Below, one piece after another: positions 42,565 to 54,177 of a stretch of DNA of 64,000 bases. A program made the translations under genes and the position numbers. A model generated the notes under the pieces. That model was not told the DNA's origin. It saw nothing but the letters and a program-made list of their open reading frames with translations, and did not search any database. Each line of letters starts with the position of its first letter. Within the stretch, counting starts at the first letter, position 1. This stretch comes from Isoetes taiwanensis (lineage: Eukaryota; Streptophyta; Lycopodiopsida; Isoetales; Isoetaceae): contig JAJEKV010000057.1 of the NCBI GenBank assembly GCA_021234155.1, forward strand, positions 7,350,623-7,414,622. The letters run 5' to 3'.

Positions 42565-45337
42565 CACAATCTTACTCTGGTCATTAGCCTTAGTTCCCTT
42601 TAAGTCTTTAGTACCATCCTCTAATCCATATGTAGTGTTCTTAGTTGTCCATAGACATGTCTCCTGATCCTATAAATGCAACTAATATGGTGATGGTACC
42701 TTGTCTTGGATAAGGGGATCAATTTATCTATATGACTTGGAGCATTGCAACACTATGTTGGAATGAACTTATTCTCTTAAAATTAACCTATGCATAAAAT
42801 AAAAATGTTGTTGCTCCTTGGGCTTGATGGTGTTTCTGTATGGTATGCATATCCCACAATAATGGTTGATAGTATGATGGTTGACTTTGGAAATGATAAT
42901 TTGTTGCCACTTGATTGTCTAGTGCAATGTAAATGAATTCGGACATTTTTTCTTAAGTTATAATATAGTTAGACTTTCTGGATTTTACTTAAGACTAATG
43001 AACATTTGCAGCATTTATGATGGTGGCTGGTTAATATCCTTTTAGGTTGCAGCAATGGAAGTAGGGGCAAAGGTTAATTTGATACTATAGGAATATTAAT
43101 TGGGACTGAATATTGGGGACGAGTTGTTGATGATGATGTTCCAATATATATGTGGGTTTCAATAAAGGGACTATGATCAAAGATAATTTTGAAACCAGAG
43201 GTATGCTTCTAGGAACTCATTAATGGCCTTGATGATAGTCTGGGCCCTTAACCTGAATAGGTTAATTTTACTTCTAAAGATTATTAAGGTAATGAAAGAC
43301 CACCTAGTGGACTATAGCAAGAACGTGAAGTAAAGATATGGATATATGGAGGTTATTTTGACAACTAGAAAAAATGTATATCATAAAATTGGCATGCTAA
43401 CATCTTGTTGGAATGTAGTAAGTTTACTAGGGGCAATGGTCATGTGGTGATTATGGCAAAATTATGGGGACATAATTTAAAGCCTAAGTATACAATGGAT
43501 GTTAAAGGTGTATGTAGGGTGTGTATGTGAATTTGAATAAAAAAATTGGGTTAAAAAGGATTGTTTTAAAGGTCATATGTTGGTAATCTTATTGTTAGTT
43601 GTGAAGTTATATTATACAATAATATGTACCCTTATCTATTGATCTAACCCTAATCGATGGATCTAACCCTAATGCTCGTTGGCAACAAAAGCGTGACTTG
43701 GGCAAAGGACTAAATGATCTCAGAACTAACTGGAGATGACTCTTCTGGAAACTGCTGTTGACGGCTGCATGTATGCAATCATATTTTGTTGCATTCTGAG
43801 CTCGAAAGCTACAGGTACTGATAATGCATTTTTTATTTCATTTCTCTTGAGTAATTCTGGATTATTTCTAGTATATTTCTTGTGGATATCTGGTAAGTTT
43901 CACTTTATCTGGACGTTCTTGTAATTTCTGCTTTAGCGTATGGGATTAAGGGCTTAAAATCTCCTTAATTGGTTTTAGCAAATAGACAAGATAAATAGAC
44001 TTAGTTTCCCAATTCGGAAAGCTTGAGCATGAGTAAAGAGTGGGCACCGAGAGGTATTTGTTAATAAGGGGCAAACTAGGCCCAAACTTATTGAATTTCG
44101 AGGAGACATGGGATAGAGCACAAAGAATCCCAGTAAACCCAGTTAATGATGCTAATTGATCTCGGGCACAAAGATGGATTAGATCCAAATAGGGCCAAAG
44201 GTGACATGGGTATCTTGAAGTTTGTTCCAAGCCCTGAATCCTTGTGGGAATGTCTCCAAAATAGCGTAAACTTCCGGCAAAGAATGTGGTCATTTGGTGG
44301 CTGATTCTAATGTGGAGATTGTAGCTGACTCTGACAATGAAGAGGACTCTAGCAATGAAATTCAACCAAATCAGGTTTGCTCGTAGTATTTATACTTAGA
44401 TGGTCTGAATTATCATAAGAGATTATTACTGCAGCTTATATCTGGGTTACAATGGTACAGCAATTTTGATCTGTTCATAAATTATTTAATTGCAAGAGGT
44501 ATGATAGCTTTGGGTTGGCTTTAAAATTACATTATTAATTTTCAGTATATAAATTCTGTGGGTAAAGGGCAGAAATGCCAAGAGAGTTCATAGCTTACCT
44601 GCTAGCATTAGTATTTCTTACCCTCTTTAGGCTAATAAGTGCTATTTGCTGCAGGTAACCGAACTCTCTTCTCCTGCACTCTTTTTTGCATGGATGTTTG
44701 AGGAATGCTGCTGGTTATGAACTATTCATTAATTTTGTTGTTACAATCCGTATGGGTAAGTATTTACTCTTACTTTGCTATTACTATTGAAGACATATGG
44801 ACAAAATATTTGGCAATACATTTGGTACTTCCTTTTAATCCTATTTCTCTTGTAACTTTTTTCATATTATGGATCTGAAGTACAACTGTTATAGTATCTT
44901 TGTTTTATTATCTTTAAAATACATCTGTTATATTTCATGGTAGATCTATATGTTTGTGGTAATTTTTTAAGAATTTGGCAATAATTTGCTCATATTGGCT
45001 GCTCTATCCATTTATTGGTTGTATTTTGAATCCTTCAAATAATATTATTGTCCGGGTTATTTTTTTTTATTGAGTCAATGGCTTTAATAGCTTGTCGATC
45101 GTCTCCCCAGCTAATTGTTTGAGCATAATTTTTGGCAATATTACATGTGTGGGATTAATCTAATATTATTGGTGACTAGGACATGGTTATTATGGTGAAT
45201 TCTTTATGTTTTTAGTCCCATGACCTCTATGGTTTCCCTTTTTAGGGTTCAATAAATTGTGTTTCCTATCTAGTTAATATAGGACTCCTTGGATGTCCGG
45301 TTAATGCATGAGGTCTTGGCTAGGCCAATTTATATAT
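42565..45337 (+). repeat. Element 2 long terminal direct repeat, left
   Basis: About 2.77 kb, starting CACAATCTTACTCTGGTCAT and ending GGCTAGGCCAATTTATATAT. Largely identical to the right copy, with scattered small indels. Carries an acidic exon-like frame ending CCAAATCAG|GTTTGC at 44374, frameshifted in this copy. Otherwise non-coding. Confidence 0.9.
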
Positions 45338-45480
45338 CTCCCCATTTTGAATCACCGGTTTTACCGGGTGTGAGCCATAGAGGTCATTGGGACTATTGTT
45401 TTAAGTTGTGTGTTCTCTTATACTTTCACTTATACCTTCACGATATTTTCTTTTTATACTAATTTTTATGCTTTTATATA

Positions 45481-51417: not shown

Positions 51418-54177
51418 CACAATCTTACTCTGGTCATTAGCCTTAGTTCCCTTTAAGTCTTTAGTACCATCCTCTAATCCATATGTAGTGTTCTTAGTTG
51501 TCCATAGACATGTCTCCTGATCCTATAAATGCAACTAATATGGTGATGGTACCTTGTCTTGGATAAGGGGATCAATTTATCTATATGACTTGGAGCATTG
51601 CAACACTATGTTGGAATGAACTTATTCTCTTAAAATTAACCTATGCATAAAATAAAAATGTTGTTGCTCCTTGGGCTTGATGGTGTTTCTGTATGGTATG
51701 CATATCCCACAATAATGGTTGATAGTATGATGGTTGACTTTGGAAATGATAATTTGTTGCCACTTGATTGTCTAGTGCAATGTAAATGAATTCGGACATT
51801 TTTTCTTAAGTTATAATATAGTTAGACTTTCTTGGTTTTACTTAAGACTAATGAACATTTGCAAAGATTTATGATGATGGCTGGTTAATATCCTTTTAGG
51901 TTGCAAAAGAATGGAAGTAGGGGCAAAGGTTAATTTGATACTATAGGAATATTAATTGGGACTGAATATTGGGGACGAGTTGTTGATGATGATATTCCAA
52001 TATATATGTGGGTTTCAATAAAGGGACTATGATCAAAGATAATTTTGAAACCAGAGGTATGCTTCTAGGAACTCATTAATGGCCTTGATGATAGTCTGGG
52101 CCCTTAACCTGAATAGGTTAATTTTACTTCTAAAGATTATTAAGGTAATGAAAGACCACCTAGTGGACTATAGCAAGAACGTGAAGTAAAGATATGGATA
52201 TATGGAGGTTATTTTGACAACTAGAAAAAATGTATATCATAAAATTGGCATGCTAACATCTTGTTGGAATGTAGTAAGTTTACTAGGGGCAATGGTCATG
52301 TGGTGATTATGGCAAAATTATGGGGACATAATTTAAAGCCTAAGTATACAATGGATGTTAAAGGTGTATGTAGGGTGCGCATGTGGGCTGAATAGAAAAA
52401 ATTGGGTTAAAAAAGGATTGTTTTAAAGGTCATATGTTGGTAATCTTATTGTTAGTTGTGAAGTTATATTATACAATAATATGTACCCTTATCTATTGAC
52501 GAACCCTAATCGATGGATCTAACCCTAATGCTCATGGCAAGCGTGACTTGGGCAAAGCTGACTAAATGATTCAGAACTAACCGAGATGACTCTTCCGAAA
52601 CCGGCCGCTGACGGCCGCATGTATGCAATCATATTTTGTTGCATTTCGAGCTCGAAGCTACTGTGCACCGATAATGCATTTTTATTTCATTTCTCTTGAG
52701 TAATTCTCGATTATTTCTAGTATATTTCTTGTGGATATCCGTAAGTTTCACTTTATCTGGACGTTCTTGTAATTTCTGCTTTAGCGTATGGGATTAAGGG
52801 CTTAAAATCTCCTTAATTGGTTTTAGCAAATAGACAAGATAAATAGACTTAGTTTCCCAATTCGGAAAGCTTGAGCATGAGTAAGAGTGGCATCACCAGT
52901 AGGGCTGTTAATAAGGGGCAAACTAGGCCCAAACTTATTGAATTTCCGAGGAGACATGGGATAGAGCATGTTAATCCACAACCGAGTAAAGCACGCTTAA
53001 TTGATCCAGGCGGCACAAAGATGGATTAGATCCAAATAGGGCCAAAGGTGACATGGGTATCTTGAAGTTTGTTCCAAGCCCGAATCCTTGTGGGAATGTC
53101 TCCAAAATAGCGTAAACTTCCTCGGCAAAGAATGTGGTCATTGTGGCTGATTCTAATGTGGAGATTGTAGCTGACTCTGACAATGAAGAGGACTCTAGCA
53201 ATGAAATTCAACCAAATCAGGTTTGCTCGTAGTATTTATACTTAGATGGTCTGAATTATCATAAGAGATTATTACTGCAGCTTATATCTGGGTTACAATG
53301 GTACAAACAATTTTGATCCTGCTCATAAATTATTTAATTGCAAGAGGTATGATAGCTTTGGGTTGGCTTTTAAAATTACATTATTAATTTTCAAGATATA
53401 AATTTGTGGGTAAAAGAATGCCAAGAGAGTTCATAGCTTACCCGCTAGCATTAGTATTTCTTACCCTCTTTAGGCTAATAAGTGCTATTTTTGTCGTGTA
53501 ACCGAACTCTCTTCTCCCCGCACTCTTTTTGCATGGATGTTTGAGGAAATGTCCGGTTATGAACTATTCATTAATTTTGTTGTTACAATCCGTATGGGTA
53601 AGTATTTACTCTTACTTTGCTATTACTATTGAAGACATATGGACAAAATATTTGGCAATACATTTGGTACTTCCTTTTAATCCTATTTCTCTTGTAACTT
53701 TTTTCATATTATGGATCTGAAGTACAACTGTTATAGTATCTTTGTTTTATTATCTTTAAAATACATCTGTTATATTTCATGGTAGATCTATATGTTTGTG
53801 GTAATTTTTTAAGAATTTGGCAATAATTTGCTCATATTGGCTGCTCTATCCATTTGGCTGGTTGTATTTTGAATCCTTCAAATAATATTATTGTCTGGTT
53901 ATTTTTTTATTGAGTCAATGGCTTTAATAGCTTGTCAATCGCCTCATAGCTAATTGTTTGAGCATAATTTTTGGCAATATTACATGTGTGGGATTAATCT
54001 AATATTATTGGTGACTAGGACATGGTTATTATGGTGAATTCTTTATGTTTTTTAGTCCCATGACCTCTATGGTTTCCCTTTTTAGGGTTCAATAAATTCA
54101 GGTTTCCTATCTAGTTAATATAGGACTCCTTGGATGTCTGGTTAATGCATGAGGTCTTGGCTAGGCCAATTTATATA
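51418..54177 (+). repeat. Element 2 long terminal direct repeat, right
   Basis: About 2.76 kb copy of 42565-45337. Its exon-like frame reads VVIVADSNVEIVADSDNEED before ...IQPNQ and the donor at 53221. It is preceded by a short AT run (51401-51417) and runs into a ~140-bp (AT)n tract. Confidence 0.9.

Follow-up and report, generated by a model that had tools for sequence, protein, structure and literature searches.

Introduction

The closest described relatives in behavior of the retroelement analyzed here are Penelope-like elements (PLEs), whose canonical members carry a GIY-YIG nuclease joined to the reverse transcriptase (RT). In Anolis, cDNA synthesis by a Poseidon/Penelope element (PAc) starts inside the RNA, in a stem-loop near the border between the pseudo-long terminal repeat (pLTR) and the open reading frame (ORF), at AT-rich DNA, and the start site is not homologous to the cut DNA (PMC11167929). 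Terminons are described as exposing telomere-complementary repeats beside a ribozyme fold and pairing them with chromosome ends (PMC6431247), endonuclease (EN)-deficient PLEs are a known subclass reported in some plants (PMC3846280), and florendoviruses lack integrase and frequently have TA(n) flanks, for which a role as filler DNA in break repair was proposed (PMC4241990). We analyzed a stretch of 64,000 nucleotides from the lycophyte Isoetes taiwanensis (assembly GCA_021234155.1, contig JAJEKV010000057.1, positions 7,350,623 to 7,414,622, forward strand; hereafter the window) that contains two copies of an element with long terminal repeats (LTRs). On the evidence below, in which its RT is compared with RTs of the same genome, we consider it probable that this is a Penelope/telomerase-like retroelement that has true LTRs and no recognizable endonuclease or integrase, inserts into (TA)n tracts, and initiates cDNA internally from a (TA)n primer.

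Terminons and EN-deficient PLEs share with this element what is probably a TERT-related RT logic, several ORFs, tandem arrays, and no linked GIY-YIG found, and Terminons also share an RNA fold beside an exposed repeat that is complementary to the repeat in the target DNA (PMC6431247). A PLE-like (partial) tandem organization with terminal repeats was found here, and the anatomy would also fit PLE-like internal initiation near the repeat–ORF border; the GIY-YIG domain of canonical PLEs, in contrast, was absent from Pfam scans of 11 RT and 10 ORF1 sequences. Unlike Terminons, the element has an LTR-encoded first exon and an antisense gene with B3-like exons. An earlier annotation of the window (the original prediction) had judged the layout to match no known element; beyond it, we describe a (TA)n target, RNA folds that are conserved, an exon encoded in the LTR, and tandem arrays. 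We likewise found no such element in titles and abstracts of open-licence literature, a scope that leaves most subscription papers outside, or in the passages seen of a brown-algal survey (PMC12477816).

Anatomy of copy 1

Copy 1 is bounded by the two direct repeats of ~2.77 kb that the original prediction had reported (42548-45337 and 51401-54178), which are 95.2% identical over 2813 aligned columns. As it had also stated, the repeats lack TG...CA ends; their edges are TA-rich, starting TATATA...CACAATC and ending ...GGCCAATTTATATAT. The expected RT motifs (KAHK, CYENIP, GIPMGFASSP, FRYMDD, and FLNVTI) are present, and the copy 1 RT fragment matched Pfam RVT_1 at E 3.5e-4 (20.8 bits, under the 29.6-bit cut-off). 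The antisense gene proved real, matching B3 at E 9.7e-5 (22.7 bits, under the 30.1-bit cut-off), with a second B3-like exon in the antisense gene of relatives. Copy 1 is not intact: to be read against copy 2, the diverged second element of the window, its ORF1 requires 16 frameshifts and the N-terminal half of its RT another 15; part of all these may be assembly errors. The features of copy 1 are as follows (H1, H2, and H3 are RNA folds; / marks a predicted splice junction).

42504-42564, no strand: (TA)n, 5′ flank of copy 1 (sequence)
42548-45337, plus strand: 5′ LTR; (TA)n then CACAATC... at its start and ...GGCCAATTTATATAT at its end (repeat alignment; edges alike in relatives)
44029-44374, plus strand: predicted LTR-encoded exon 1 of ORF1, decayed; MSKxGRPEG..NKGQTR...SKAQLI.LC..., ending PNQ/GT (donor motif, frame open in relatives, weak SAP matches)
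44567-44670, plus strand: H1 RNA hairpin in the LTR, within the predicted intron (conserved fold)
45214-45394, plus strand: H2 RNA fold across the LTR 3′ end and the internal start (conserved fold)
45331-45337, plus strand: UAUAUAU, the final LTR bases, left unpaired by H2; candidate template on which a (TA)n primer would be extended (consensus structure, flanks)
45482-46990, plus strand: ORF1 exon 2, decayed, end approximate; acceptor ..TATAG/GAAG (acceptor motif in 12 of 12 elements)
47279-49335, plus strand: RT gene, N-terminal half frameshifted, 48512-49189 open (RT motifs, comparison with copy 2)
49980-50919, minus strand: antisense gene carrying two B3-like exons, an optional cargo whose ends are approximate (Pfam matches, relatives)
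51312-51400, plus strand: H3, two hairpins and a purine-rich GGTAGGAGGCAGGG directly 5′ of the 3′ LTR (layout alike in E1, E3, E4, E5, E7, E8, and E9)
51401-54178, plus strand: 3′ LTR (repeat alignment, 95.2%)
54172-54315, no strand: (TA)n, 3′ flank of copy 1 (sequence)

A dispersed family with open reading frames and tandem arrays

A search of the 1.66-Gb genome with a 226-residue RT fragment gave 2892 first-look candidates; the 150 that were scored all had E <= 2.3e-77, and many lay in open frames of 690-766 residues. We fetched 18 kb around each of ten relatives (E1-E10) and compared these with the window copies (W1 and W2). Long direct repeats were found in nine of the ten relatives and not in E6. 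The RT frame was open over 688-766 residues in eight relatives, 668 in E6, and 459 in E1, and ORF1 spanned 505-577 residues in eight and 451 in E2. LTR pairs were 94.7-98.8% identical in E1, E3, E5, E8, E9, and E10, whereas E2 and E4 were partial tandems in which the second repeat continues into internal sequence. The gene order was LTR, ORF1, RT, LTR, with the antisense B3-like gene before the last LTR in some relatives. LTR lengths in the family ranged from ~2.4 to 4.0 kb, with the same kind of border in diverged families, and dispersed copies on many contigs had the same edges and open ORFs.

Between copies 1 and 2, protein identity was 36% for ORF1 and 44% for the RT. The proportion of synonymous differences (pS) was ~0.85 in both genes and that of nonsynonymous differences (pN) was 0.42 in ORF1 and 0.35 in the RT; because pS is saturated and pN is much lower, both were coding. 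These values bear on whether the locus could instead be a chance duplication, or a satellite-driven tandem, around a decayed RT pseudogene and not a mobile element. The satellite-rich surroundings and the many frameshifts of copy 1 would suit such an origin, but it conflicts with purifying selection and is ruled out by the dispersed copies with shared edges and open ORFs on many contigs; we regard its probability as negligible.

Head-to-tail arrays are frequent. Thirty-one of the 150 scored RT matches had a same-strand neighbor within 20 kb (17 same-strand pairs, 3 opposite). Exact copies of the LTR–internal junction numbered 61 (0 for a control pattern), and 23 of the 61 had a same-strand neighbor within 12 kb, in steps of 8.3-10.4 kb, compared with a single opposite-strand pair. 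LTR recombination could be an alternative source of these arrays.

The antisense gene lay 3′ of the RT in W1, E1, E3, E5, and E8. B3 was matched by four of five antisense exon proteins (E 2e-4 to 4e-5, all under the Pfam cut-off); the fifth query, which had no match, was a misplaced reference in locus L055. In E4, E7, and E9 the H3 hairpins directly follow the RT, and the post-RT region of E10 showed no similarity; the B3-like gene is thus optional cargo. In E1, E3, E5, and E8 this gene is of plant type, with two B3-like parts and protein-level conservation between diverged copies.

A reverse transcriptase outside the Ty1 and Ty3 groups

We compared a family profile of the catalytic part of the RT (alignment A10) with RTs of the same genome, namely TERT, three Ty3 and two Ty1 sequences, one long interspersed nuclear element (LINE) fragment, and one group II piece. 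Host TERT scored 8.7 bits over 46 residues around motifs 3/B′, a score reached by none of 357 scored shuffles. The host Ty3 and Ty1 RTs scored -4.6, -2.4, and -2.7 bits, within the range of shuffles, and two received no score, in keeping with the original prediction that the RT is not of Ty1/Ty3 type. Because the profile found host TERT, with host Ty3 and Ty1 within shuffles or unscored, we conclude that the RT is not of LTR type and that, among the eukaryotic RTs tested, it leans to TERT. Pfam searches of 11 RT sequences gave RVT_1 in ten (best E 1.5e-6); DUF4214 and NUMOD4 (E 0.21) were each matched once and weakly.

Integrase, protease, RNase H, GIY-YIG, APE, and restriction-like endonuclease domains were all absent from Pfam scans of the 11 RT and 10 ORF1 sequences, as were the first three from scans of the copy 1 pieces. 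The absence of integrase, protease, RNase H, and GIY-YIG proposed for copy 1 therefore extends to uninterrupted genomic copies, including the open relatives in which the original prediction had suggested looking for an integrase. ORF1 had no consistent Pfam family across 10 sequences, and its identification as a known protein was rejected, with one PDB match (E 0.008) and scattered single Pfam matches (best PilP, E 0.007). Alignment of shallow profiles with hhalign gave no match, RT profiles searched against the PDB found no RT, and single-sequence RT searches returned ribosomal L5 and, at E 0.27, a single match to DRT1.

Viral or prokaryotic contamination was rejected, with no relatives in IMG/VR viral contigs, genome contigs, or phage records. 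GIY-YIG genes of the same genome were also rejected as the missing nuclease, as no such RT lay beside 20 loci (motif scan, 1.5-kb flanks). The GIY-YIG domain itself gave 121 matches among 150 scored candidates, dispersed and often in small frames of 115-156 residues (L063-L082, e.g. L071), and these copies are possibly a separate mobile family.

Insertion into (TA)n tracts

The 3′ LTR edge is TATATAT, and we counted TA runs beyond these bases at 22 3′ ends, consisting of 13 of 34 fetched LTR ends plus E1, E3, E5, E7, E8, E9, E10, W1, and W2; the remaining 21 fetched ends, which continue into internal sequence, were excluded, as were E2, E4, and E6, whose 3′ end lies in internal sequence or whose second LTR was not found. 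Alternating TA of at least 4 bases followed 18 of the 22 ends, compared with 1.1% of random window positions, and at least 8 bases followed 13 of the 22, a run of 7 being reached by 0.3% of random window positions. At a further 3′ end, L111, a long TA tract follows after one C. At the 5′ side, the TA run was longer than that of the internal copy in all four cleanly comparable elements (E1, 48 and 15; E3, 144 and 17; E8, 79 and 21; W1, 47 and 17).

The window contains five perfect TA tracts of at least 20 bases. Four adjoin the four ends of copies 1 and 2, and the fifth (39859-39881) sits in an unoccupied copy of the repeat that took copy 1:

39845-39910, no strand: unoccupied target repeat, (TA)n then CAAGTCTTTGTACTATGAGGG (flank alignment)

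This repeat matched the left flank of copy 1 at 97.3% over 37 columns and the right flank at 91.4% over 70 columns; much of either match is TA, and the right one takes in CAAGTNTTTGTACTATGAGGG. Because the unoccupied repeat already carries (TA)n, the TA tract pre-dates insertion, at least for copy 1. By eye, L106 and, in reverse orientation, L115 apparently lie in the same repeat as copy 1. Telomeric repeats are not the target, as the element ends examined lie in (TA)n tracts.

A dispersed repeat with internal (TA)n and CAAGTNTTTGTACTATGAGGG seems to be a recurrent landing site. A AGATTCCC satellite surrounds both elements (window 38351-39744, 40860-42381, and 54576-54815).

Conserved RNA folds place the LTR end in an unpaired segment

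H1 contains a 10-bp stem, in which 9 of 10 pairs are doubly changed between copies 1 and 2, over a UUACCUG/CAGGUAA stem that is identical in both. On an alignment of 11 elements (without E8), H1 comprised 37 pairs, of which 15 had changes on both sides, compared with 2.7 in shuffles (0 of 500 had as many). H2, a 180-nt fold across the LTR end and the internal start, comprised 61 pairs on 11 elements (without E4), 29 with changes on both sides compared with 13.6 ± 2.2 in shuffles (0 of 500 had as many), and 94.8% of its cells were paired, compared with 25-48% when the alignment was slid. E8 and E4 were left out where their start was not found by motif search. These shuffle counts are not probabilities, because the structures were derived from the alignments that were counted and the sequences are related; nevertheless, the two window copies alone, with RTs 44% identical, already have compensated stems. 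In a counter-check of helix length, 10 of 400 flank shuffles attained the 14 bp of copy 2, and none of 400 attained the 16 bp of copy 1; along both elements, 14 bp was reached at 2 of 155 other positions, and none was longer. In the H2 consensus CAAUUUAUAUAUCUCCCCAUU is unpaired, and the LTR ends inside CAAUUUAUAUAUCUCCCCAUU, after UAUAUAU. H3 consists of two hairpins and a purine-rich GGTAGGAGG(C/T)AGGG directly 5′ of the (TA)n of the 3′ LTR.

Eleven of 12 elements (all but E6) had a donor motif CAG/GTT in the LTR, and all 12 had an acceptor motif AG/GAAG or AG/GAGG 5′ of ORF1. The predicted splice would join an LTR-encoded exon (MSKAGRPEG..NKGQTR...) to ORF1, and the predicted junction is in phase in the elements checked (E1, E3, E5, E9, and E10). 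SAP matches were weak (E 0.005-0.06 in four of six exon 1 sequences), and GRPEG may be AT-hook-like in our reading. Since H1 and H2 lie in the predicted intron, only unspliced RNA would carry them.

The borders also bear on conventional LTR replication in particles by an unusual RT, with minus-strand synthesis started at the LTR–internal border by an unknown primer that H2 holds, plus-strand synthesis starting in the purine tract, and linear DNA that is captured by end joining where fragile (TA)n tracts break. Ty1/Copia and Ty3/Gypsy elements have the same LTR–internal–LTR order, matching LTR edges, a purine-rich tract 5′ of the 3′ LTR, and an ORF before the RT. This element differs from them in an RT that is unrelated at profile level, in lacking TG...CA ends, and in the enzymes missing from the Pfam scans (integrase, RNase H, and protease). 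At seven borders inspected by eye, the 10 bases that follow the LTR, where the primer site usually lies, contain no TGG (no tRNA set was compared). Conventional replication also leaves unexplained both the many arrays and an LTR end, UAUAUAU, that falls in the unpaired segment of a conserved fold. Florendoviruses are endogenous caulimovirids with a viral genome without LTRs of this kind and an RT of another type. These plant reverse-transcribing, integrase-less elements are often TA(n)-flanked, explained as filler DNA in break repair (PMC4241990), and similar end-joining capture at fragile TA tracts is one of the two strongest rivals. On balance, we consider conventional LTR replication unlikely.

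The other strong rival is a plain EN-deficient PLE of the Athena/Coprina/Terminon type, in which the apparent LTRs would only be stretches where partial tandem copies overlap. Copies in tandem and in partial tandem do occur, such PLEs are reported in some plants (PMC3846280), and Terminons are described as pairing RNA repeats with DNA repeats (PMC6431247). However, the ~2.4-4.0 kb LTRs have fixed edges that share one border type across diverged families, next to a hairpin that is conserved and a tract of purines; insertions are at (TA)n microsatellites and not at telomeres; and the RNA fold differs from that of Terminons, with no hammerhead match in Rfam searches that covered 29 kb of window sequence and six loci of 10 kb each. 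We find this alternative rather unlikely. No relevant Rfam family was found in the same sequences, by which a hammerhead or other known ribozyme was rejected; the Rfam matches listed were microRNA models (mostly on TA tracts), one small RNA model, and one small nucleolar RNA model, all under cut-offs.

Copy 2 resembles an aborted product

The diverged second element lies on the minus strand (~38207-30760), with ORF1 open and only the N-terminal half of the RT. The original prediction had named a second RT region (30863-32185) besides that at 48370-49330; this region is the N-terminal half of the RT of copy 2.

34613-38207, minus strand: 5′ LTR, start inferred; ~0.6-kb LINE-like tail inserted near 37211-37817 (sequence comparison)
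36100-36507, minus strand: LTR exon 1 (predicted)
35862-35985, minus strand: H1 (conserved fold)
34575-34726, minus strand: H2 (conserved fold)
32480-34129, minus strand: ORF1 exon 2, open; the ORF1 that is broken in copy 1 (ORF comparison)
30866-32188, minus strand: N-terminal half of the RT, ending just after motif A (RT comparison with copy 1)
30760-30865, minus strand: last 107 LTR columns fused to the RT gene, 98.1% identical to 34719-34613 (alignment)

The breakpoint (34719) falls within the 5′ strand of the closing helix of H2 (34726-34713). Copy 2 thus looks like an aborted product, in which cDNA begun at the LTR end on folded RNA switched template at the helix.

The LINE-like tail within the copy 2 LTR (37211-37817, minus strand) has a poly(A) and, by eye, ACTTAATG on both sides.

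A proposed replication cycle

For a Penelope/telomerase-like element with true LTRs, we propose a cycle whose splicing, priming, and strand-transfer steps are inferred, as are the functions given to H1, ORF1, and the B3-like gene. Transcription would begin in the 5′ LTR. Spliced RNA would encode the LTR-encoded exon, with its AT-hook-like GRP and weak SAP-like motifs, fused to ORF1, and unspliced RNA would retain H1, perhaps for recognition or packaging, and H2, with UAUAUAU unpaired at the LTR–internal border. With the RT on H2, a (TA)n tract that has been broken or nicked would pair through its 3′ end with UAUAUAU, and first-strand cDNA would begin within the RNA, precisely where the LTR ends on its 3′ side, as in a Penelope-like element and at the telomerase template. 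The cDNA would cross the LTR, jump to the second LTR copy or to the second unit of an array transcript, and reach the (UA)n tract at the LTR start, where base pairing to the opposite side of the (TA)n target would close the insertion.

By analogy, the nearest demonstrated behavior would be the internal initiation of the Anolis PLE, along with what is described for Terminons. PAc has a GIY-YIG endonuclease and starts at a site without homology to the cut DNA, whereas the start proposed here is complementary to the target repeat. Telomerase may share the unpaired template in a structured RNA that is complementary to a DNA repeat, and host TERT was matched near motifs 3/B′; in contrast to telomerase, a whole element would be copied instead of repeats being added, and the RNA would be the element's own transcript.

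Several observations weigh against this reading. It was built from sequence. A full-length copy needs strand transfer, because complete H2 occurs only at the 5′ LTR–internal junction or within arrays, and the template-jump view comes from copy 2, a single case. LTR ends mostly come in pairs along the genome (36 of 40 listed have a same-strand partner 7.7-9.5 kb away), which fits ordinary LTR-type replication, as does the purine-rich tract 5′ of the 3′ LTR. The 3′ ends of L098 and L101 lie outside a TA tract, and that of L095 is rich in TA but with interruptions. For H1 and H2, the structures come from the same alignments of related sequences in which pairs were counted. The TERT link amounts to 8.7 bits over 46 residues, a score that generic prokaryotic RT models exceed (the best for CRISPR-associated RT was 1.8e-5, with 20.7 bits for one member; UG21 gave 0.0013); a broken host LINE fragment (n = 1) gave no score, and the group II piece, in which motif B is missing, does not inform the comparison. 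The B3, SAP, and RVT_1 matches are under Pfam cut-offs wherever cut-offs are given, and structure predictions were poor (pLDDT 38.9 and 33.1).

More tentatively, the family could represent a separate class of retroelement, comprising LTR elements with a telomerase-like RT and a telomerase-like internal RNA template, in which chromosomal (TA)n ends are the primer and this template, presented by a conserved fold of the unspliced RNA, sets the LTR 3′ end instead of a tRNA and integrase. Class boundaries meet here: textbook classes associate LTRs with integrase and with priming by tRNA, and telomerase-like RTs with elements that have no true LTRs, and both feature sets would be joined in an abundant plant family with many open copies, in which the RNA structure expected to set the start site and target can be read from covariation. 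If the class assignment is correct, the family would stand, as a living intermediate, between priming of the telomerase/Penelope kind and strand transfer of the LTR type; if (TA)n targeting is correct, its elements would mark fragile TA tracts in plant chromosomes. Testable questions arise about the origin of Penelope-like terminal repeats and about whether telomerase-style template annealing can drive insertion at interstitial repeats.

Other features of the window and genome

A 408-residue open frame at 150-1373 of the window (plus strand) contains a DDE_Tnp_4 transposase domain (E 1.7e-21) and is presumably a PIF/Harbinger-type DNA transposon. Elsewhere in the genome, contig C163 holds 19 of the 29 group II intron maturase matches, many with in-frame TGA; we take this contig to be, probably, the mitochondrial genome with reverse RNA editing, as would fit a seed-free vascular plant.

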